Shown here: in pieces, positions 40,207-48,456 of the stretch
How positions within the stretch are numbered: position 1 is the first letter of the stretch
Layout of the letters: each line of letters begins with the position of its first letter
Assembly: GCF_000478585.1 (NCBI RefSeq)
Contig: NZ_ARWI01000001.1
Location: 1,984,001 to 2,048,000 of the forward strand
DNA: 64,000 nt
Reading direction: 5' to 3'
From: Thiomicrorhabdus sp. Kp2
GTDB lineage: Bacteria > Pseudomonadota > Gammaproteobacteria > Thiomicrospirales > Thiomicrospiraceae
Notes under the pieces: generated by a model
The model's input: the letters and a program-made list of their open reading frames with translations, nothing else
What the model was told of the DNA's origin: nothing
The model's database searches: none
Made by a program: the position numbers and the translations under genes

Positions 40207-40233
40207 GAATGGCGCGCTTGAGAAACCTCGAAC
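40207..40233. repeat. Left attachment-site repeat
   Basis: This 27-bp sequence matches the tRNA-Arg 3' end region at 48377-48403 at 22 of 27 positions, in direct orientation. The shared core is GCGCTTGAGA, flanked by GAATGG on one side and TCGAAC on the other. Confidence 0.75.
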
Positions 40234-40330
40234 ATGAGTTTTTTATGGTTCTTAACTGTATATAGAGTCTTTATTTAACAAATAGTTAAGTATTTATTGG
40301 TTCTAAATGGTTTGTTGAAATCCCGAATAA

Positions 40331-40362
40331 AATACGGTATCGTTTACGGTATCTATTCAGGA
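40331..40362. promoter_or_regulatory. Left integrase arm-type site
   Basis: Two ACGGTAT motifs (starting 40334 and 40346, 12 bp apart) lie in a 32-bp block that matches the block at 48302-48333 in 26 of 32 positions without gaps. It overlaps the integrase leader and the first bases of its AGGAGG Shine-Dalgarno sequence. Paired copies near both ends are typical of integrase or AlpA arm binding sites. Confidence 0.65.
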
Positions 40363-40374
40363 GGTTTACCAAAA

Positions 40375-41595
40375 GTGAAACGAAGTCTTACAGATAGAGC
40401 GGTCAAGTCGCTGAAACCAAAAGATAAGCAGTATAAAAAAGCTGATGGGGGTGGGTTGTACCTATTGATAAAGCCGAACGCTTCTAAACTATGGCGTTAT
40501 GATTTTTCCTATTTGAGCAAAAGATACACACTTTCTATTGGTTCTTACCCAGAAATTGATTTATCTACTGCTAGAGATATACATGGTCAGGCTAGAGCTG
40601 ATTTAGCGGCGGGTAACGATCCTAGACAAAGGCATAATGAAAGCCATCAATTAAAGTCTTTTAGCTATTACGCAAGAGAGTGTGTTCTTCGTCAAGAAAT
40701 CTCGGAATCAACACGTCAGAAGAAATGGCAAAGAATAGAGCGCTACCTAAATCCAGTTTTAGATAGGAAGCCAGTTAACACTATTACCACAATAGACCTG
40801 CTTAATATTTGTAAGCCTATAGCTGATGAAGGTAAGCGTGAGACAGCTAGATATGTCTCGACTTATGCTAGACAGACTTTTAACGACCTTGTGTTGTTAC
40901 AGTTGATTTCTATTAATCCCGCCGCAGGATTGTCAGAATTACTGCCTTCACCCAGGCCATCGGAAAACTTTGCTTTTACCTTAGAGCAGAAAACTCTCAA
41001 AGCGTTGTTGCTTGGTTTTGATGCTTATTCTGGCGATATAGCTGTCGCAAAAGCTCTCCAGTTTATGCCATTGGTATTTCTTAGGCCGAAGAATATTAGG
41101 TTTCTTAAGTGGAGTCATGTTGATTTCCAAGAGAGGTTAATTACTTTTCAAAAAGATGATATGAAAATGAAGCGCCCACACTTTCTTCCAATGAGCAGAC
41201 AGGTTATTGAGATATTAAGGTTTATGGAGCGATTGACAAGTGGTCAAGAGTACGTGTTTTCTACAGCCAGAGCTTGTGGTAAGCCAATGAGTGAGAATAC
41301 TTTAAACCAGGCTATTAAACGTATCAGGAATCCAAAGGATGGATTGCCATTTGGTAAAGGAGTAATGACTTCTCATGGCTGGCGTCATGTAGCTTCTACA
41401 TATCTCCATGAGCTTGGGTATGAGTCAGAGTTAGTGGAAGCTCAGTTAAGTCATGCCGATGCTAATTCGGTTAGATCTGTTTATAACAAGGCTGAATATT
41501 TATCCAAAAGAGCAGGGATGCTCCAAGATTGGGCTAATTATTTGGATGGAATTAAAAGAGGTGCCGAGGTGGTGCCATTATTTAAAGTTAAATAA
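40375..41595 (+). CDS. Tyrosine recombinase integrase (P4-type, DUF4102 N-terminus)
   Basis: A site-specific recombinase of about 406 residues. The N-terminal arm-binding domain opens RSLTDRAVKSLKPKDKQYKKAD and GGGLYLLIKP, as in the P4-integrase family. The catalytic residues are in FLRPKNIRFLKW (Arg), MKMKRPHFLPMS, SHGWRHVAST (His-x-x-Arg) and the C-terminal VYNKAEYLSKR with the nucleophilic tyrosine. The GTG at 40375 follows an ideal AGGAGG ribosome binding site; an ATG at 40297 would add 26 residues encoded across the arm site and is less likely. It should insert the element at the tRNA-Arg gene, although it lies at the end away from the tRNA. Confidence 0.93.
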   Translation: MKRSLTDRAVKSLKPKDKQYKKADGGGLYLLIKPNASKLWRYDFSYLSKRYTLSIGSYPEIDLSTARDIHGQARADLAAGNDPRQRHNESHQLKSFSYYARECVLRQEISESTRQKKWQRIERYLNPVLDRKPVNTITTIDLLNICKPIADEGKRETARYVSTYARQTFNDLVLLQLISINPAAGLSELLPSPRPSENFAFTLEQKTLKALLLGFDAYSGDIAVAKALQFMPLVFLRPKNIRFLKWSHVDFQERLITFQKDDMKMKRPHFLPMSRQVIEILRFMERLTSGQEYVFSTARACGKPMSENTLNQAIKRIRNPKDGLPFGKGVMTSHGWRHVASTYLHELGYESELVEAQLSHADANSVRSVYNKAEYLSKRAGMLQDWANYLDGIKRGAEVVPLFKVK

Positions 41596-41635
41596 TTATT
41601 GTTTTACATTAATAAGCCGAAGATAGGAGGCGTAT

Positions 41636-42130
41636 ATGAAAACTAATGTTACTGAGTGTAACTTGCCAGCAGAGTTTGTAATGAGCACAAGTACTAGTAA
41701 GTTGAAGTTTAAAAACAGGAAGAAACTTCCATTACACAGGCTTCCTTTTGTAGGAGATGAGGATGGGAAGCTGGGGCTATCTTTTTGGAAAGTGCCAAAG
41801 GACGGCGGGTATGCTGGCGGCTGTACAACTGGAAAAGCTTTAGCGCGCATTTACTTAAAGCATCTAAAAGAGCATGGAGGGTGTCCTGGTGGGATGCTTC
41901 AAAGCATAACTTTAGATATGCTTGATAAAGAGAGGGATGACAGGCAAGAATGGGATTCATTAAAAGGGCAGGCTGTTGGCTTCTTTTCAGAGCTTGATAG
42001 ATGGCTAGTAGCTGCGGCTAAAAACATGGATGATGGGCTTGAAAATGAAGATAACAGAGTGTTATTAAAAACAGCCAATAAGGGTCTTAATTTTGATGCT
42101 GCTGCGTATAGAGCCAGCTTGAAAGATTAA
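41636..42130 (+). CDS. Uncharacterised element protein
   Basis: A 164-residue soluble protein of unknown function, 40 bp after the integrase. It has a basic N-terminal half, a conserved-looking LSFWKVPKDGGYAGGCTTGK stretch near residues 48-67 and a helical C-terminal half. The FWxVPxxGGYAGGCxTGKA pattern is something I associate with small proteins following integrases on proteobacterial islands, but I cannot name the family. It has no signal peptide, membrane helix or catalytic motif. A GGAGG motif lies upstream of the ATG. Confidence 0.75.
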   Translation: MKTNVTECNLPAEFVMSTSTSKLKFKNRKKLPLHRLPFVGDEDGKLGLSFWKVPKDGGYAGGCTTGKALARIYLKHLKEHGGCPGGMLQSITLDMLDKERDDRQEWDSLKGQAVGFFSELDRWLVAAAKNMDDGLENEDNRVLLKTANKGLNFDAAAYRASLKD

Positions 42131-42159
42131 GTTCCGTTTTTAAAAAATGAGAGGACTCA

Positions 42160-42795
42160 ATGAAGCCTGAATTAATTTCGCTTTCTGATGCGCTTAAGCT
42201 AATAACTTCTCAAGGAGCGGGTAAGGATGAGGTGCTAATTGAAATAACATCGAATATTCGTTCTAAAAAGTTAAAGGCATTCCTTAATAAGTCAGGTATA
42301 GGAATGGTTGAGGAAATAGAAAAAAGGGGGGGTGGCATATACTTCATCACAGGAACAACTAGTTATAATATTGAGGGGTTTATGCTGCCTGGAGAGGTGC
42401 CCCTTCTTGAGGTTGCTCACTCAATTCATTTCATTGAACAGCAAATTTTTGACATGTTTGGAGTCCAGCTTGATACAACAGGGGGACTAAATGATTTAAA
42501 GAGTGCTAAAGCTGGAAAAGCAACAATTCCAGTACCAAAAGCTTATTACAAAAAAGCAATAAGAGAAGCGATTAGTGTTCTTGGTAAAGGAGCAACTAAT
42601 GAGCAAATCTACCAAAAGATAAAATCTTTAAGAGCAGGAGCAAAGGATTCTTCTTACCTTTATGAGATCGAGTTTGAAGGTGATGAAGTTTTTAACTTTA
42701 ATGTTACCAGTCAAACAGCCACGGTTCTTATGAGTGGTGGCAGAGCCATATCTAAGCAGACTTTTCAAGATTCTGTATCAAAGTTAAAAAAATAA
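42160..42795 (+). CDS. Uncharacterised element protein
   Basis: A 211-residue soluble protein with no recognised family. It is Lys- and Gly-rich with alternating short strands and helices. A middle segment (about residues 115-155) reads KAYYKKAIREAISVLGKGAT and NEQIYQKIKSLR, which resembles a helical DNA-binding or oligomerisation unit. It lies 29 bp after the preceding gene on the same strand and is probably cotranscribed. The intergenic DNA after it carries inverted TTTCGT/ACGAAA repeats (42798-42840). Confidence 0.7.
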   Translation: MKPELISLSDALKLITSQGAGKDEVLIEITSNIRSKKLKAFLNKSGIGMVEEIEKRGGGIYFITGTTSYNIEGFMLPGEVPLLEVAHSIHFIEQQIFDMFGVQLDTTGGLNDLKSAKAGKATIPVPKAYYKKAIREAISVLGKGATNEQIYQKIKSLRAGAKDSSYLYEIEFEGDEVFNFNVTSQTATVLMSGGRAISKQTFQDSVSKLKK

Positions 42796-42797
42796 TC

Positions 42798-42840
42798 TTT
42801 CGTATCTTTCGTTCCGACGAAAAAAAAGACGAAAACGAAA
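42798..42840. repeat. TTTCGT/ACGAAA inverted repeat cluster
   Basis: TTTCGT occurs at 42798 and 42807, and ACGAAA at 42817, 42829 and 42835. The inner pair forms a short hairpin around TCCG. The cluster lies upstream of the AlpA and Gp2-type gene group, so it may be an operator, a terminator for the preceding gene, or part of a replication origin. Confidence 0.5.
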
Positions 42841-42900
42841 AACACACTTATCTCAACTCTTCAAAAGGAGAGGGTTTTTAATTAAATCGGAGATAAGAAA

Positions 42901-43350
42901 ATGAGCAAGACTCAATATCAAACAGCTAACGCAGCATTAACCCACCTATTGAATGGCGAGCGCTTTTCTCGCTTAAACCTTCCACAAGATGTTGGCACTA
43001 TCAATTCAAGCTTACATTCAATCATTAGCACAATTCAAAACAAATACTTCGTCCCTATCTGTTCAGAGTACAACATTCACAATGTCTGTGAGTATTGGGT
43101 GGAGAAGGAAGAGATAGAACGCTTTTACAATGACAGAGAGTCTCAAAGAGAAGAGATGAAACACGAGGTTCGTCTTCGCTCTATTCAGAGAGAAGCAAAA
43201 GCTCTTCTTCGCCTTGCTGAAAAACTTGCTACTAACAGTGATGGTCTAAACCTAGTTATTCAAGAATTGGATGGAAAAGGTAAGTTTGCTGAGCTTGTTA
43301 TTCAGGCCGCTAACGATTCCTTTGGCAAGAACGGAGGTGACGCAGCATGA
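42901..43350 (+). CDS. Small winged-helix-like element protein
   Basis: A 149-residue protein with no certain family. Residues 5-70 suggest an N-terminal winged-helix region (AALTHLLNGERFSRLNLP through STIQNKYFVPICSE, then VCEYWVEKEEIERFY), followed by a charged helical segment, REEMKHEVRLRSIQREAKAL. Proteins of this shape are common just upstream of AlpA-like regulators in islands and prophages. Its last codons overlap the AlpA start by 4 bp (ATGA). A GGAGA ribosome binding site lies before the ATG. Confidence 0.7.
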   Translation: MSKTQYQTANAALTHLLNGERFSRLNLPQDVGTINSSLHSIISTIQNKYFVPICSEYNIHNVCEYWVEKEEIERFYNDRESQREEMKHEVRLRSIQREAKALLRLAEKLATNSDGLNLVIQELDGKGKFAELVIQAANDSFGKNGGDAA

Positions 43351-43529
43351 ATAAGCGAATCTACCGTTTAAAAGCCCTTGTAAGTGAGTTAGGGCTGTCT
43401 AAAACAACAATCTACGCATTGATTAAGGAAGGCCAATTTCCAAAGCCTGTCAGTCTAACAGCTCGTTCAGTAGGTTGGAAAGCAGAGGATATTGAAGAAT
43501 GGCTTAATTCACGCAAGAAAGTGAGTTAG
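43347..43529 (+). CDS. AlpA-like transcriptional regulator / excisionase
   Basis: A 60-residue helix-turn-helix protein of the AlpA (MerR-like) family. It reads IYRLKALVSELGLSKTTIYA followed by LIKEGQFPKPVSL and AEDIEEWLNSRK, the usual pattern. AlpA regulates integrase expression or excision in P4-like satellites, and AlpA is a hallmark regulator of Gram-negative PICIs. The ATG overlaps the previous stop, and the next gene starts 3 bp after its stop, giving a tight operon. Confidence 0.9.
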   Translation: MNKRIYRLKALVSELGLSKTTIYALIKEGQFPKPVSLTARSVGWKAEDIEEWLNSRKKVS

Positions 43530-43532
43530 ACC

Positions 43533-44315
43533 ATGCCTGTCATGACCCATGTTTTGGAGGGTAATAACAGCCCTCTTAACACCTTCAATTCATTTAGCGG
43601 TTTTGTATCAGCGGTTTTGTATCATGAGACTGTTAGCAACCCCTTATGGATTGAAGGTTTTAGAGATTCCAAAGTGGAACGAAAAAAGCGGATATTTCTA
43701 ATATCTAATAACTCTTCCTCTACAAATTCAGATAGAAAATTAACAAACAGAAAGTACGTTACATACTCAAATACATACAAGCACGAGAGCGGTTATTACG
43801 ATATTAACGTTGCTAAGAAATCTGGATGTTATACGCAAGTTCTTAGTCGAATGATTGACCAATTGTTGGTTTGCTATAAGAGATGGAAAAGGGTTTTTGT
43901 GCTACGTTTTGACCTTCATTACAAAATATACACTCAAGACAACAAGGTTGTTAGTGACTTCATGCGAAGAGTGCGCTCTTATATCAAGCGAAATTATCAG
44001 GCAAAGGAAGTAGGTTTTTGCTGGGTCAGGGAAGTTGAGAGAGTTAAGGTACAGCACTATCACGTTGTTTTGTTTCTTGATGGTGACAAGATAAGGCATT
44101 CATCTAAACTCAATAAAGTCATCAAGGGAATGTGGGAGAGAAATACTTGCGGCACGAAAACTATGCCTACTATTCCGAACCCATATTATTGGATTAATGA
44201 TATGGAGGGGGTGAAAGACGTGGTTTGGCGTATCTCTTATATGGCTAAAGAGCGTGGTAAAGGTTATAGGGGTGTTCAGGCAAAAGATTATTCAGCAAGT
44301 AGATTAAAGTCTTAA
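43533..44315 (+). CDS. Inovirus Gp2 / YagK-YfjJ-type replication protein
   Basis: A 260-residue protein whose C-terminal two-thirds resembles the YagK/YfjJ or inovirus Gp2 domain. It has VFVLRFDLHYKIY, the signature VQHYHVVLFLDGDKI with paired histidines, and a final WRISYMAKERGKGYRG followed by DYSASRLK. These proteins are found in cryptic prophages and satellite islands and are thought to be replication initiators. The HYH motif suggests HUH-like endonuclease chemistry, but that is inference. It starts 3 bp after the AlpA gene and is probably coexpressed. Confidence 0.8.
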   Translation: MPVMTHVLEGNNSPLNTFNSFSGFVSAVLYHETVSNPLWIEGFRDSKVERKKRIFLISNNSSSTNSDRKLTNRKYVTYSNTYKHESGYYDINVAKKSGCYTQVLSRMIDQLLVCYKRWKRVFVLRFDLHYKIYTQDNKVVSDFMRRVRSYIKRNYQAKEVGFCWVREVERVKVQHYHVVLFLDGDKIRHSSKLNKVIKGMWERNTCGTKTMPTIPNPYYWINDMEGVKDVVWRISYMAKERGKGYRGVQAKDYSASRLKS

Positions 44316-44376
44316 TTATGATTAGTGTAACAATAATCAAGATGTTAAAATATAATTGAAAACTTTAGGTCTAAAG

Positions 44377-44634
44377 ATGAAAAGTATTGAAGAAAGTTTG
44401 GCCTTAAAAAAGGCTAAAGAAATAATTGAAAGAACAGCTCATTATGAAGGTAAAAGTATAGAGCGAGAGCTGTTTGACGCAGCTATTACTGTTGCCGCAT
44501 TTATAGATTCTGGTCGAATTACTTTTGAAGATGATATGGCTGATTTTTATACGCATGGCCTTGTTGCTTGGGGGGTAGTAGCCGCTCATAGAATAGGTAT
44601 CAAGAGTGAGTCAGAAAATAAAACGATTCAATAA
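44377..44634 (+). CDS. Small uncharacterised element protein
   Basis: An 85-residue acidic protein without a recognised domain. It reads KSIEESLALKKAKEIIERTA in the first helix and contains a DDMADFYTHGLVAWGVVAAH segment that is mildly hydrophobic. The ATG at 44377, shortly after an AGG-containing stretch, is preferred over a TTG at 44356. It lies between the Gp2-type gene and the putative virion gene, with 12 bp to the latter, so it may belong to the late module. Confidence 0.6.
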   Translation: MKSIEESLALKKAKEIIERTAHYEGKSIERELFDAAITVAAFIDSGRITFEDDMADFYTHGLVAWGVVAAHRIGIKSESENKTIQ

Positions 44635-44646
44635 AGGTGGAAAGGT

Positions 44647-45630
44647 ATGTTCGGAGAAATATTAGGCGGGGCTATAGGCGGGCTTTTTGGTGGAAGTGAA
44701 AGCTCGTCTACGAGTGAGAGTAATGTTTGGGGGGAGCAAGAGAACTACCTCAAAGATATATATCAAAATTCACAAGGTTTATACAATCAAGGCTGGCAAG
44801 CACCAGGTGTAGCGGATTTTAACAATATCCAAAACGATGCTATGACAGGCATGCTTGGATATGCCAACACAACAGGCATGGATATTGCCAATAACAACAT
44901 GAACCAGGCCACACAGCTAATGGGCGGTTATGACCAGGCGCAGAACTACTATGGCGATTTAATGAATGGCGGCACACAGTTCAATGCTAATGCTAATCAG
45001 TTCATCAACTCAGACTTAGTAAACGGACAAATCAATGCGGCTAACAGTGCGGTAGATGACCAGTTCGGGCAAGCAATGAACGGCATTGCTTCACAAAGCG
45101 CAGGCGGCGGTAACACAGGCTCAACACGTAGAGCCGCAGCAGAAGCTATGATGGCGAAAGAAGCAGCAGGCTTAAAGTCTAACAATGTCTCTAACATTCA
45201 AAACAATGCTTATCAAAACGCCATGAATCAAATGAATCTTGGTGCTAATAACACGATGAATATGGCGAATCAAGGCACAGGTATGATGGGTGATGCTTAT
45301 AGTATGGGGCTACAGCCATACCAAACAGCCTTGAATGTAGGCGGAATGAAACAAGATATGTCGCAAACTCAATACGACTGGCAGAATAATAACGAATGGG
45401 ATTTATTAGGGCGTTATCAAGCGGCTATCGGCAATCCTACTGTGCTTGGTAGTTCAACAAGTAGTACAGCAGACTACAACAATGATCTTGGTAAAGGTTT
45501 AATGGGAGGATTGTCATATTCTTTCTTTGATGGTGCCAACGGTTATGGTCTTGGCTCTTTGGGCTATGGGGCAAGTTATGACATTAACCCGCTTGGTCAG
45601 CAAGCAAGTATGTTATCTAACCAATGGTGA
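44647..45630 (+). CDS. Gly/Asn/Met-rich putative virion (ejection-type) protein
   Basis: A 327-residue protein with an N-terminal glycine-rich hydrophobic segment (MFGEILGGAIGGLFGG), then a low-complexity body rich in Asn, Gln, Met and Gly with repeats such as NNNMNQATQLMGG and NAYQNAMNQMNLG. It ends with a Gly/Tyr-rich region. This composition resembles small phage minor virion proteins thought to be ejected with the DNA. The similarity is of composition, not proven homology. It lies directly upstream of the TerS-like gene. If correct, the element would bring its own virion or injection component; a secreted or adhesive protein is the main alternative. Confidence 0.5.
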   Translation: MFGEILGGAIGGLFGGSESSSTSESNVWGEQENYLKDIYQNSQGLYNQGWQAPGVADFNNIQNDAMTGMLGYANTTGMDIANNNMNQATQLMGGYDQAQNYYGDLMNGGTQFNANANQFINSDLVNGQINAANSAVDDQFGQAMNGIASQSAGGGNTGSTRRAAAEAMMAKEAAGLKSNNVSNIQNNAYQNAMNQMNLGANNTMNMANQGTGMMGDAYSMGLQPYQTALNVGGMKQDMSQTQYDWQNNNEWDLLGRYQAAIGNPTVLGSSTSSTADYNNDLGKGLMGGLSYSFFDGANGYGLGSLGYGASYDINPLGQQASMLSNQW

Positions 45631-45635
45631 TTTAG

Positions 45636-46103
45636 TTGAGGTCTTTAACTGATAAACAAGAGGCTTTCTCTAAAGAGTTCGTGCTAAACGGAGGTAATGC
45701 CTCTGCTGCTTATAGAAAAGCTTATGAGGCCTCTAAGATGAAGCCTGAAAGTATAAATGTTAAGGCTTGTGAGTTACTCAAGAACGGCAAGATTACGGTA
45801 AGGATTGATGAAATTCAAAGTAAGGTAAAAGCAAAGCTTGAACAACAGTTTGATTCTACTGTTAATGAGCGGCTTTTTTTACTTTGGGGTATAGCAAAGG
45901 CATGTAGTCAGAAAGAAGAAGGTACGCAGAGGCTCGTAAATCCTCAAGCGGCTATTAGTGCTATTGACCAGATTAACAAGATGACAGGTGATCACGCAGC
46001 AGTTAAGCAGAAGACTGAACACAGTGGCAGTGTTGAAATGACAGATAGCCGAGCGTTAGAGATATTAACTGAGAATGGAATAGATGCTAGTAAGCTTAAC
46101 TAA
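45636..46103 (+). CDS. Terminase small subunit-like protein (TerS)
   Basis: A 155-residue protein matching the Terminase_2 small-subunit family. It opens RSLTDKQEAFSKEFVLNGGN and continues with ASAAYRKAYEASKMKPES, the helix-turn-helix that recognises packaging sites, and INVKACELLKNGKITVRIDE. A helical oligomerisation region follows. Satellites of the PICI class use their own TerS to redirect helper-phage packaging. No large subunit is present here. The start is TTG at 45636, six bases after the preceding stop, suggesting coupled translation. Confidence 0.88.
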   Translation: MRSLTDKQEAFSKEFVLNGGNASAAYRKAYEASKMKPESINVKACELLKNGKITVRIDEIQSKVKAKLEQQFDSTVNERLFLLWGIAKACSQKEEGTQRLVNPQAAISAIDQINKMTGDHAAVKQKTEHSGSVEMTDSRALEILTENGIDASKLN

Positions 46104-46143
46104 TGTTGATTTCAGCTAAAACTAAAAAGGTTTGATATAGATT

Positions 46144-46428
46144 ATGGCTAACACAACAGGTAGAAAATTTGGGGGGCGTCAAAAAGGCACGCCAAACAAA
46201 ACAACTTTAGAGATTAAAGAGGCGATAATTGAGGCTTTTAATAAAGCTGGTGGAGTGGATTATTTAGTGGGGTTAGCGAAAGAAAATCCAAGCGTCTTTG
46301 CTGGCCTATTGAGCAAGGTTTTACCTAGGGACGTTAATGTTGAAGCAGTTATTAATAAGTCAGCAAAGAGTAAAGAAGAAATTGAATCAGAACTTGTAGC
46401 ACTTGGGATTGATCCAAGCAAACTATAG
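46144..46428 (+). CDS. Small DNA-packaging-type protein (TerS/DUF5681-like)
   Basis: A 94-residue protein with a basic N-terminus GRKFGGRQKGTPNKTTLEIK, a pattern common in small phage proteins next to terminase genes, then a helical region (AIIEAFNKAGGVDYLVGLA) and an acidic tail that ends ELVALGIDPSKL. A similar closing phrase, EILTENGIDASKL, ends the preceding TerS, so the two may share a partner such as the helper's large terminase. Same operon, 40 bp downstream of TerS. Confidence 0.7.
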   Translation: MANTTGRKFGGRQKGTPNKTTLEIKEAIIEAFNKAGGVDYLVGLAKENPSVFAGLLSKVLPRDVNVEAVINKSAKSKEEIESELVALGIDPSKL

Positions 46429-46673
46429 GACAGTATGCTTTTATTTAAATAAAGAAGGTCGGTAATCCCTATTTTTTTAATTATTTGATAAACTAGCTAG
46501 GGATTGAGTATAAGACTCGATATGCCTCTTTGCGATTACGTTATGTTTAGCAATGCTTTGGACTGGAAGCACTCAATCTCTTATCCCAACACTTGGCATG
46601 GAAAGTATCGGGTTGCCTTAAGCGGTTATTATGCCTATCTTTATTTGTTAGCGTTATATTTTAACCTTGTGGT
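46429..46673. other. Intergenic region at the end of the forward operon
   Basis: The 245 bp contains an inverted repeat AATCCCTA (46464-46471) / TAGGGATT (46498-46505) with a 26-nt loop that may end the forward transcript. The rest is AT-rich and overlaps the end of a weakly supported + strand open frame, which is not called. The reverse-strand gene ends at 46674. Confidence 0.5.
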
Positions 46674-47357
46674 TTATGTCGCAAAGTTAATTATTATTAA
46701 GTCTTCACAAGCAAATAGCAATATTAAAGCTGTAATAGCTAGAGCTAATGGGAATAAAAAATCCATTATTATCAGTCCAGTTACGGCACTCTTTGTTACT
46801 TTGTCAATTTCTTGTGCTCTCTTCAAATCAGGCAGAATATAGTTATTTAATCTTAGTTGATGATTTTCATAGTCAGAGTATTGTTTTCTATACTCATTTT
46901 GAGCAATGGTTTCATCCGTAATTATATGGCTCAGATTTGACGCGGGTTGTGGAGGCGGAAAGCCATTTATGCTGTGAAAAGAGTTTATTTTCTCCTCTAG
47001 TTTGTTCTTTTCCATGGTAATGCTGTCAGATAGGGGGGTGTAGTTCTGTCTGAAAAGTATTCCAATGATTCTGTGAGGTTTTTTGATAGACAGAGAAATC
47101 TCATTGCTACTGTATATTAATAGAAAAATATACCTAAATAAAAACCAAAGTAAAACCAGTCTTATAAAAACTGGTAAATAATCCCAGTTATTATTAATTG
47201 TCACAGAAAAGGGGGAGAGGCTTCCTGTTAGTGATGGCTCAAAGGTTATGTAGAAAATTACAATGCTACTAATCGCTAATAGTTTGTTTTTTGCTTTGGT
47301 CGCTTTGTCTGAAACCAGATTGTTTGAATCTGTGTAATCTTCCAATTGTTCAGTCAT
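46674..47357 (-). CDS. Uncharacterised multi-pass membrane protein (element cargo)
   Basis: A 227-residue protein with three or four hydrophobic segments: KLLAISSIVIFYITF near residue 30, VFIRLVLLWFLFRYIFLLIY near 65, and a C-terminal VTGLIIMDFLFPLALAITAL then ILLFACEDLIIIN near 195-220. A soluble loop of about 100 residues lies between. No family is recognised. It follows the gene at 47373 by 16 bp on the same strand, so the two form an operon transcribed inward. Membrane proteins at this end of satellites often belong to anti-phage or superinfection functions; here that is inference. Confidence 0.7.
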   Translation of the reverse strand: MTEQLEDYTDSNNLVSDKATKAKNKLLAISSIVIFYITFEPSLTGSLSPFSVTINNNWDYLPVFIRLVLLWFLFRYIFLLIYSSNEISLSIKKPHRIIGILFRQNYTPLSDSITMEKNKLEEKINSFHSINGFPPPQPASNLSHIITDETIAQNEYRKQYSDYENHQLRLNNYILPDLKRAQEIDKVTKSAVTGLIIMDFLFPLALAITALILLFACEDLIIINFAT

Positions 47358-47372
47358 TATTTTCCCATGTCC

Positions 47373-48212
47373 CTAAAATAATATTCCAAGAATTAAGCTT
47401 AAGGCAATTATCCAAGCTGTTAACTTTATGGAAGATAAATTTGTATCTAATTCATTCAGCTTTTTGAAGATTTGTGCTGTTGCTTCTATAATCTGTTGTG
47501 AGTTGTCTTGAGCAGTTTCTTGCTTGTCTCTATATGTATCTTCTGCTATGTTGTCACTTTCAGTTTCGGTAAATATTTTGGTAAAGGTAATGCCCGAAAA
47601 CTCAGCTTTTTCATTATTTTCTTTATCAAAATACATTTCTTTATCATTGATTGGGCCAACCCATAACCAGCCTTTCCTATTGATATAAACAGAAAGCTGA
47701 ATATCCGACTTTAACAACCATTTTTCGATACAATCAAAAATTTCTTTTGTAACACCAAACTCAGCATAAACCTCGTCTTCAATAGATATTTCTGGGTTTC
47801 CTTTAAAATAAAAGAAAGTTCCAGACTTAACAACAAGGTCAATATTATCAGTTGTATCTACCTCTCGAAGGATAAGGTTGAAATAATCTATCCTGTTGTG
47901 TCTCGATGTAGGGCTTTCTTTATCTTCTGGAACTCCAAGCAACATAGAATTATAAGAATCTTCAAATTTAGCTTTCGCTCTCAATCTTCTGAGCGGGTTT
48001 GAGTACTTAACCTCATTAGGGTTTTCATACATTTCATTTTGCGCTTGCTTTTCTTCATTTGAATGCTCAAACAATCCCAGGAGCCGAGGAGCTCTTGAAA
48101 ACCACTCTTCATTTTCATCAAGCTCAAGTAAATCAGCTGTTGTTGTAAATTCTAAATCGAATAATTCAAAGTATTCTTGATGCCAACGAAATTCTAAGTC
48201 TGTAAAACTCAT
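47373..48212 (-). CDS. Uncharacterised tail-anchored protein (element cargo)
   Basis: A 279-residue acidic, soluble-looking protein with one C-terminal hydrophobic helix (AWIIALSLILGILF), so it should be tail-anchored in the membrane with its body in the cytoplasm. A coiled-coil-like segment (EATAQIFKKLNELDTNLSSI) precedes the helix. The N-terminal half has aromatic- and acid-rich stretches but no enzyme motif that I recognise. It is the first gene of a two-gene operon with the multi-pass membrane protein at 46674-47357. Base use is AT-rich, like the rest of the element. Confidence 0.7.
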   Translation of the reverse strand: MSFTDLEFRWHQEYFELFDLEFTTTADLLELDENEEWFSRAPRLLGLFEHSNEEKQAQNEMYENPNEVKYSNPLRRLRAKAKFEDSYNSMLLGVPEDKESPTSRHNRIDYFNLILREVDTTDNIDLVVKSGTFFYFKGNPEISIEDEVYAEFGVTKEIFDCIEKWLLKSDIQLSVYINRKGWLWVGPINDKEMYFDKENNEKAEFSGITFTKIFTETESDNIAEDTYRDKQETAQDNSQQIIEATAQIFKKLNELDTNLSSIKLTAWIIALSLILGILF

Positions 48213-48301
48213 AATAGATACCCTTGTTTTAACTGCGTGACATTTACATAGTTAGCATATACGTATATTTACAGATTCTCAAGAGTGGGAAAAGAAAATG
48301 A

Positions 48302-48333
48302 AAAGCGGTATTTTTTACGGTATCTATAAAGGA
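48302..48333. promoter_or_regulatory. Right integrase arm-type site
   Basis: GCGGTAT (48305) and ACGGTAT (48317) are 12 bp apart in a 32-bp block that matches 40331-40362 in direct orientation. It lies about 45 bp inside the right att repeat. Confidence 0.65.
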
Positions 48334-48376
48334 TTGTGTAAGGAAAGTGTATATTATTCAATAGGTTACTTGTAAA

Positions 48377-48403
48377 GAATGGTGCGCTTGAGAGGATTCG
48401 AAC
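48377..48403. repeat. Right attachment-site repeat (tRNA 3' end)
   Basis: This direct partner of 40207-40233 overlaps the last 24 nt of the tRNA-Arg gene. The tRNA sequence remains complete, as expected when integration regenerates the 3' end. Confidence 0.75.
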
Positions 48404-48456
48404 CCCCGACCCCTGCCTCCGGAGGGCAGTGCTCTATCCAGCTGAGCTACAAACGC
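48380..48456 (-). tRNA. tRNA-Arg(CCG)
   Basis: The reverse strand folds as a 77-nt tRNA beginning GCGTTTGTAGCTCAGCTGG and ending GGTTCGAATCCTCTCAAGCG plus CACCA. The CCA is encoded. The anticodon loop CTCCGGA gives anticodon CCG, reading CGG arginine codons. D-loop, T-loop GTTCGAATC and acceptor pairs are all present. Its 3' end serves as the attachment site of the satellite-like element. Confidence 0.95.

Follow-up and report, generated by a model that had tools for sequence, protein, structure and literature searches.

A putative 8.2-kb integrase-AlpA-Gp2 phage satellite with a predicted podophage-type ejection protein at tRNA-Arg(CCG) of Thiomicrorhabdus sp. Kp2

The locus, its ends and its gene content

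The window analysed here comprises 64,000 nucleotides (bases 1,984,001-2,048,000) of the single-contig 2.73-Mb genome of Thiomicrorhabdus sp. Kp2. At positions 40207-48403, on the 3' side of a tRNA-Arg(CCG) gene, it harbours an element with a start-to-start length of 8,170 bp, which a first-pass annotation had described as a minimal phage satellite. The plus strand encodes, in this order, a tyrosine integrase, orf164, orf211, orf149, AlpA, a Gp2-type protein, orf92, a DNA ejection protein, the small terminase subunit (TerS) and orf94, and two membrane-type genes on the minus strand adjoin the tRNA. The features are as follows (window coordinates, strand, description).

40207-40233, plus: distal attachment repeat, a partial copy of the tRNA-Arg 3' end
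40335-40356, plus: integrase arm-type site 1, within the 37-nt site 40326-40362
40375-41595, plus: tyrosine integrase (likely GTG start; listed open reading frame from 40297); PF00589 and Arm-DNA-bind_3, above Pfam cut-offs
41636-42130, plus: orf164, function unassigned; PHROG match to phrog_12849
42160-42795, plus: orf211, from the open reading frame list; no Pfam or PHROG family
42901-43350, plus: orf149, function unassigned; 69% identity over 140 amino acids to the same-place protein of the element in genome G055
43347-43529, plus: AlpA regulator/excisionase; PF05930, E=4.5e-17
43533-44315, plus: Gp2/YagK-YfjJ-type replication protein with an HYH motif; YagK_YfjJ_C PF11726 and REP_ORF2-G2P PF23343, above Pfam cut-offs
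44356-44634, plus: orf92, function unassigned; weak, doubtful PHROG match labelled large terminase subunit (TerL)
44647-45630, plus: podophage DNA ejection protein, 327 amino acids; phrog_4287, E=8e-25
45636-46103, plus: small terminase subunit TerS; PF03592 (above the Pfam cut-off) and phrog_51
46144-46428, plus: orf94, TerS-position protein; phrog_11043
46674-47357, minus: predicted membrane protein, cargo; hydrophobic segments judged by eye
47373-48212, minus: protein with a C-terminal hydrophobic segment (judged by eye), cargo
48306-48327, plus: integrase arm-type site 2, within the 37-nt site 48297-48333
48377-48403, plus: tRNA-proximal attachment repeat
48380-48456, minus: tRNA-Arg(CCG), integration target

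Both sets of terminal sequences reported at first pass were confirmed. The direct repeats of the tRNA 3' end are 81% identical over 27 nt and share a 17-nt core with one mismatch, GAATGG(C/T)GCGCTTGAGA, a match that no Markov-shuffled version of the left flank equalled (300 shuffles). The two 37-nt arm-type sites, just inside the two ends of the element, are 81% identical to each other, and the motif built from both, which includes a doubled ACGGTATC, has exactly two copies in the entire genome, against none for the reversed control. The arm domain of the integrase begins near a GTG at 40375, which is therefore its likely start and places the first arm site upstream of the gene. In an excised circle the two sites would flank the core, in the manner of the arm sites of a tyrosine integrase.

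The integrase, AlpA, Gp2/YagK-YfjJ-type protein and TerS named by the first-pass annotation all score above Pfam cut-offs, and its possible virion protein proved to be the DNA ejection protein, encoded between the replication and packaging genes. No convincing match to TerL, portal, capsid or tail proteins, which had been reported as missing, was found among the 12 open reading frames (small overlapping frames lie outside that set), and the Pfam and PHROG matches of the element's proteins include no primase. The Gp2-type protein is read as a putative HUH protein from its Pfam matches and HYH motif; its predicted structure, modelled alone, reached a predicted local distance difference test (pLDDT) score of 45 and gave no Foldseek match at E<=0.001. 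Two tandem 14-bp copies of AGCGGTTTTGTATC stand at 43596-43624, at the start of the Gp2 gene, and are a possible candidate origin repeat. The best phage match of orf164 is the Pseudomonas satellite phage phiAH14b (34.7%); it is no satellite hallmark, since it also matches 35 other phage records, all of Pseudomonas phages (33-49 kb among those listed). The gaps between orf92, the ejection gene, TerS and orf94 measure 12, 5 and 40 bases, so these four genes probably form one operon. A reading of orf92 as a piece of TerL was dropped, its match to a short TerL-labelled family being weak (E=0.001) and its phage matches reaching only E ~0.9-1. For the two membrane-type cargo genes, no convincing family was found in Pfam, PHROGs, PADLOC or NCBIfam.

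The second small packaging-type protein of the first-pass annotation is the product of orf94. Kin of orf94, itself a phrog_11043 protein, lie directly 5' of the terminase gene in three of the five phage contexts opened: that gene is an annotated terminase in Sulfitobacter phage pCB2047-A and a PHROG-supported TerL in IMG/VR contigs L065 and L067. In Bradyrhizobium phage ppBjS10J-1 the next gene encodes a 460-residue protein, and in L066 no TerL follows. The product of orf94 thus appears TerS-like by position, which is not proof. Relatives of TerS itself are followed by TerL in L049 and L057, the two contexts examined for this feature. Two TerS-type proteins of different families in one small element could point to two helpers.

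The ejection protein and its phage kin

In podophages, ejection proteins are packaged within the head and needed for infectivity (PMC8954989; this and the other papers cited are represented here by excerpts). A close relative of the window protein is encoded in the 11.2-kb IMG/VR contig L002. The two are 80% identical over 281 codons (nonsynonymous divergence dN 0.148, synonymous divergence dS 1.16) and 90% identical over the central 207 (dN 0.059, dS 0.92); a 680-bp block shows 85% nucleotide identity, and third codon positions are the most divergent in the core (68% identical, versus 92 and 95% at the others). With the homolog in contig L048 as outgroup, 275 gap-free columns hold 11 private changes in the satellite copy and 12 in the phage copy, so the former shows no sign of decay and seems to have evolved no faster than the latter.

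The phage protein (L002 3044-4174) bears a C-terminal S74 endosialidase-type chaperone domain. Such domains usually sit on tail fibres, which fits the PHROG matches seen. The satellite protein lacks this domain, and over its final 34 residues it is similar (56%) to the C-terminus of the phage protein encoded next. At the S74 position the alignment is also gapped in the homologs of L048 and L070-L072, and the L048 protein has no PHROG match to the domain; its absence from the satellite copy therefore need not be a loss, and the domain may be a novelty of L002.

Judged from its genes, contig L002 appears to be a fragment of a temperate podophage genome. It carries tail-type and phrog_3287 virion genes, an ejection cassette and an integrase, and the best named relatives of its virion genes are LUZ24-like Pseudomonas phages (~30% identity). 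Next to its integrase lies a stretch that looks like the 3' half of a tRNA of Met type and has DNA matches in 13 records of the plasmid collection, from unrelated bacteria. The equal GC content of L002 (0.400) and the window (0.398) fits a shared host, which it does not prove.

Overall, ejection homologs were found in seven contigs, of which five (L002, L048 = L069, L070, L071 and L072) were opened and two (L073 and L074) were not. In all five the homologs lie within apparent podophage structural cassettes, as judged by family tests of the neighbours for L002, by protein comparison for L048 and by eye for the others; the L002 protein, like that of the window, matches phrog_4287. The phage and plasmid records held no relative of the window protein, nor did 84,980 genomes scanned twice, each time with two short patterns. 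Scanning IMG/VR with two other proteins of L002 returned only L048 (34%) besides L002 for the 514-residue protein, with no further close kin, and L002 itself for the 630-residue one. An AlphaFold model of the ejection protein built from six sequences (pLDDT 35) was not used, and sequence searches of the PDB returned nothing useful.

Relatives of the element and known satellites

The element is not conserved across the genus. Of the 62 genomes of the order, that of Kp2 alone has the ejection gene; the 31 further genomes of the genus lack it, and the order yielded no complete prophage containing these genes. Neither of the two findings that the first-pass annotation had named as fatal to its reading, the same genes inside a complete prophage of related strains or conservation of the tRNA-linked DNA across the genus, was thus encountered. 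At class level the ejection protein matched in 2 of 369 genomes; the second match (G252), weak and in a flagellar gene by eye, was dropped. TerS is present in 2 of the 62 genomes (Kp2 and G055), orf149 in 1 of the 369 genomes of the class, and IMG/VR scans for orf149 and Gp2 gave no match.

Gp2 has a wider range, with matches at E<=0.001 in 7 of the 62 genomes of the order, four of them strong (Kp2, G055, G034 and G051); the weak matches in G060, G041 and G015 (E 2e-5 to 6e-4) were not counted as relatives. The G055 element spans 8.06 kb between 49-bp copies of a tRNA-Val end with one mismatch and encodes an integrase, toxin-antitoxin-like proteins (by eye), the orf149 relative, an AlpA-like protein, Gp2, a Sel1/trypsin-like protein (by eye) and TerS (41%). 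The G051 element, 4.85 kb between tRNA-Met copies, encodes an integrase, an AlpA-like protein, Gp2 and a TerS of phrog_57. Both have a plan similar to that of the window element, with the integrase distal to the tRNA and AlpA, Gp2 and TerS following towards it. In G034, an integrase (50%), AlpA and Gp2 are followed by what look by eye like restriction-type genes.

In the class, Gp2 was found in 8 of 369 genomes at E<=1e-8, and seven places in six foreign genomes were opened (G250, G134, G112, two in G205, G137 and G169; the weakest, G331, was not). Among the eleven Gp2 places, of which all except G034 and G112 were checked for tRNA-end repeats, such repeats bound those of Kp2, G055, G051, G134, G205-C18 and G169 and were not found for G250, G205-C56 and G137. 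A clear TerS was seen in three of the eleven (Kp2, G055 and G051), only part of the proteins of the other islands being covered, and the ejection gene in one. G134 has a weak TerS-like match (2.8e-6) and G112 a DUF5681 protein, whose likeness to orf94 is weak (hhalign probability 29%). Small Gp2 islands (4-7 kb) with tRNA repeats (L128, L129, L132 and others) occur in several families of the class and contain few recognisable packaging genes.

The integration site was compared at 28 foreign loci around the neighbouring gene; tRNA-Arg(CCG) was nearby in six, and 22 had no tRNA in the stretch examined. In the best syntenic relative, locus L019 of genome G049, both neighbours and the tRNA are present, the tRNA being inverted (L019 2547-2623, window 48380-48456) and both neighbours keeping their orientation in these two genomes of the genus. 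At the five other loci the tRNA lies within 1.5 kb, with one gene, which we take to be ferrochelatase-like, in between. The flanks of relatives of the integrase (47-52% identity) contained no copy of this tRNA end (at least 14 of 17 bases) at nine loci besides its own.

Among described systems, the Pseudomonas I55, I23 and I44 elements come close: like the window element, they are islands inserted at the 3' end of a small RNA gene and encode AlpA, a tyrosine integrase and a protein resembling inovirus Gp2. One of them, I55, was shown to travel as a satellite, its helper being jumbo phage JPTI55 (PMC12595487). These elements differ in lying at tmRNA, in their larger size (a shared region of ~18 kb) and in carrying YqaJ and defence genes, and the term 'terminase' is absent from the text of PMC12595487, whereas the window element measures 8.2 kb, lies at tRNA-Arg and has TerS, orf94 and the ejection protein. 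Gram-negative phage-inducible chromosomal islands (PICIs) likewise have an integrase, AlpA, a replication module and sometimes TerS, but their module is a Pri/Rep primase, in place of which the window element has Gp2 (PMC6092414). Phage-inducible chromosomal minimalist islands (PICMIs) are also very small, with integrase and AlpA and no capsid genes; they differ in having a primase and in lying next to fis in Vibrionaceae, and the term 'terminase' is absent from the searched text of PMC10803314. The window element has the specific attachment site with integrase and the AlpA-type regulator of a Gram-negative PICI and the integrase and AlpA of a PICMI. Because it has no Pfam or PHROG match to a primase or Rep module, no Pfam match to a DUF3987/DUF5906 primase, and a site at tRNA-Arg(CCG) rather than beside fis, it would be neither a PICI nor a PICMI by the tests made. 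Capsid-forming PICIs have capsid, portal and TerL genes of their own; no such gene was found among the 12 proteins of the element. The satellite prophage phiAH14b shares the integrase, AlpA and an orf164 homolog and has one lone annotated tail-assembly gene, but it is 16.8 kb long, has a primase and, according to its authors in the excerpted text, no terminase gene (PMC4936722).

Ejection-type genes recur in E. coli. EcCIMP1, an E. coli PICI whose transfer by the P22-like phage Kapi1 was demonstrated, carries genes 017-019, whose products are similar to DNA transfer proteins, to DUF2824 proteins and to proteins of Kapi1; its authors report the ejection-type genes under the name DNA transfer proteins and treat 017-019 as packaging candidates, the term 'ejection' being absent from the paper's text as excerpted (PMC11773190). 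With Kapi1 genes as query, 1,421 of 5,426 E. coli genomes matched, and many of the 60 places listed are P22-like prophages by annotation. Two places were opened. L142 is a P22-like prophage remnant. L141 (E. coli EH01-18-02) is an island with, in order, an integrase, AlpA, an antirepressor, a primase, a DUF2824 head-morphogenesis gene, three ejection-type genes, Abi and PerC. Of the three ejection-type genes, the first belongs to the P22 gp7 family (PF25688, E=6.6e-73), the second encodes an injection translocase (PF16928, E=3.7e-22) and the third is a large DNA-transfer gene with an SLT domain (phrog_770). A 1.5-kb probe across its primase-DUF2824 junction was at least 80% covered in 233 of the 5,426 genomes. 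A second junction-bearing island, L143 (E. coli CX21), has the same order, with DUF2824, hypothetical, phage DNA ejection and injection proteins by annotation only. The relevant intervals are L141 9001-14169 and L143 10701-15359; no terminase, portal or capsid gene is annotated among the 24 and 27 features of L141 and L143, some of which are hypothetical proteins.

EcCIMP1 and these islands, likened to it by its description and not by sequence, have in common with the window element an integrase, AlpA and genes of ejection type that are similar to short-tailed phage genes, and differ in having a primase instead of Gp2 and no terminase gene found, for EcCIMP1 in the excerpts of PMC11773190. Moreover, L141 and L143 (~18 kb each) have DUF2824 and three P22-type ejection genes, versus one of phrog_4287 type in the window element. 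The recurrence of ejection genes alongside another replication system favours a function connected with short-tailed helpers over accident.

Interpretation and competing explanations

We consider it likely that the element is an 8.2-kb integrase-AlpA-Gp2 phage satellite that has a podophage helper and supplies its own ejection protein to particles. Taken separately, that it is a phage satellite is highly probable and a podophage helper quite probable, and the chances that the ejection protein acts in particles are about even. The anatomy fits a satellite, with integration, regulation, replication and packaging-choice functions predicted and no particle, in agreement with the general definition of satellites (integration and replication genes with an incomplete virion set). 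The proposed cycle would begin when helper entry or induction switches on AlpA, which together with the integrase would excise a circle. The Gp2 nuclease would then start replication and yield concatemers, TerS and perhaps the orf94 product would steer the helper's large terminase onto satellite DNA, and this DNA would fill helper heads. The satellite ejection protein would be built into those particles, serving or replacing one ejection protein of the helper, which by its position would correspond to P22 gp7, and the satellite DNA would thus be delivered.

Several observations weigh against this interpretation. Excision, packaging, transfer and delivery are all predictions from sequence. No clean empty site was found among the 28 foreign loci; the satellite reading made at first pass is well supported by the anatomy and by the relatives of similar plan at other tRNAs. 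Only one genome is known to carry the element with the ejection gene, the Gp2 gene of the G055 relative is interrupted by a stop codon, and in G134 the integrase lies next to the tRNA, a layout unlike that of the window element. The constraint on the ejection gene could be largely older than its capture, and the L048 homolog has no PHROG match at E<=1e-4, phrog_4287 included. As to the helper, a search of the order's 62 genomes, made without a positive control, returned no phage of the L002 type, L002 is an 11-kb fragment with no recognised terminase and hence allows no comparison with the satellite TerS, and the sole TerL match of the Kp2 genome lies within a prophage that looks Mu-like and unsuited as helper and was dropped as a candidate.

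That prophage (L082 and L083, genome 2.536-2.575 Mb), Mu-like by eye, has a transposase, a MuB-like protein, TerL and tail genes, and genome G023 has a related prophage.

The main rival to a delivery role is that the ejection protein is a weapon, a trimmed copy that poisons helper particles so that the satellite competes better. The missing S74 domain and the end resembling the next phage protein would suit such a copy, and helper interference has been described for Gram-negative PICIs (PMC6092414). The core, however, is 90% identical and constrained, the gapped homologs indicate that absence of S74 need not be loss, and the three linked ejection-type genes plus a head-morphogenesis gene of the E. 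coli islands exceed the needs of a poison. We regard this explanation as rather unlikely.

It is less probable still that the element is a decayed podophage prophage after loss of its terminase, portal, capsid and tail genes. TerS, orf94 and the ejection gene are indeed phage genes, and the distal attachment copy is imperfect. Nevertheless, the reading frames appear intact, AlpA and Gp2 are present with no recognised phage replication genes, and the order Gp2, ejection gene, TerS differs from that of the phages opened, in which TerS, or its position, is followed by terminase, portal and later virion genes. Moreover, other genomes have comparable islands, alike in plan and size, at different tRNAs, and the ejection gene evolves no faster than its phage copy; both points speak against decay.

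An ordinary tRNA-linked genomic island with acquired phage genes, moving by other means or not at all, seems just as improbable as decay. Mobility is so far a prediction, and no TerS was recognised in several Gp2 islands, by eye or among the proteins covered; against this stand the tight, operon-like arrangement, which includes AlpA, TerS and the ejection gene, and the precedent of I55 (PMC12595487). Finally, retention of the ejection gene for its DNA, as a helper packaging or recombination signal within the gene, is very improbable, since the 680-bp block that might suggest it diverges most at third codon positions, as expected if protein rather than DNA is conserved.

For the favoured reading, a podophage satellite with its own ejection protein, the core of integrase, AlpA and Gp2 is already known from the proven satellite I55, and what is new is the ejection gene. 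The suggestion at first pass of a new type accordingly holds for the ejection gene and the two TerS-type genes but not for the class as such, nor did the membrane cargo, with no convincing match, add to it. No paper in the literature searched joins 'phage satellite' with 'ejection proteins'; in PMC13216270, as excerpted, the singular occurs only in a cited title on a phage protein, and broader terms led to no paper that mentions 'phage satellite'.

More broadly, and as a tentative proposal to which we give somewhat less than even chances, satellites of short-tailed phages may commonly bring their own ejection proteins. Unrelated lineages, the Gp2 mini-satellite and the E. coli AlpA/primase islands, would each have taken one or more helper-type ejection genes, so that control over the exit of DNA from the stolen particle, and perhaps over the choice of target cells, would pass from helper to satellite. 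The known piracy of satellites concerns packaging and capsid size, and ejection proteins act later, at the entry of DNA into the next cell. If satellites equip stolen particles with ejection proteins of their own, delivery becomes tunable by the satellite, and this would constitute a third layer of piracy beside stolen packaging and capsid reshaping.

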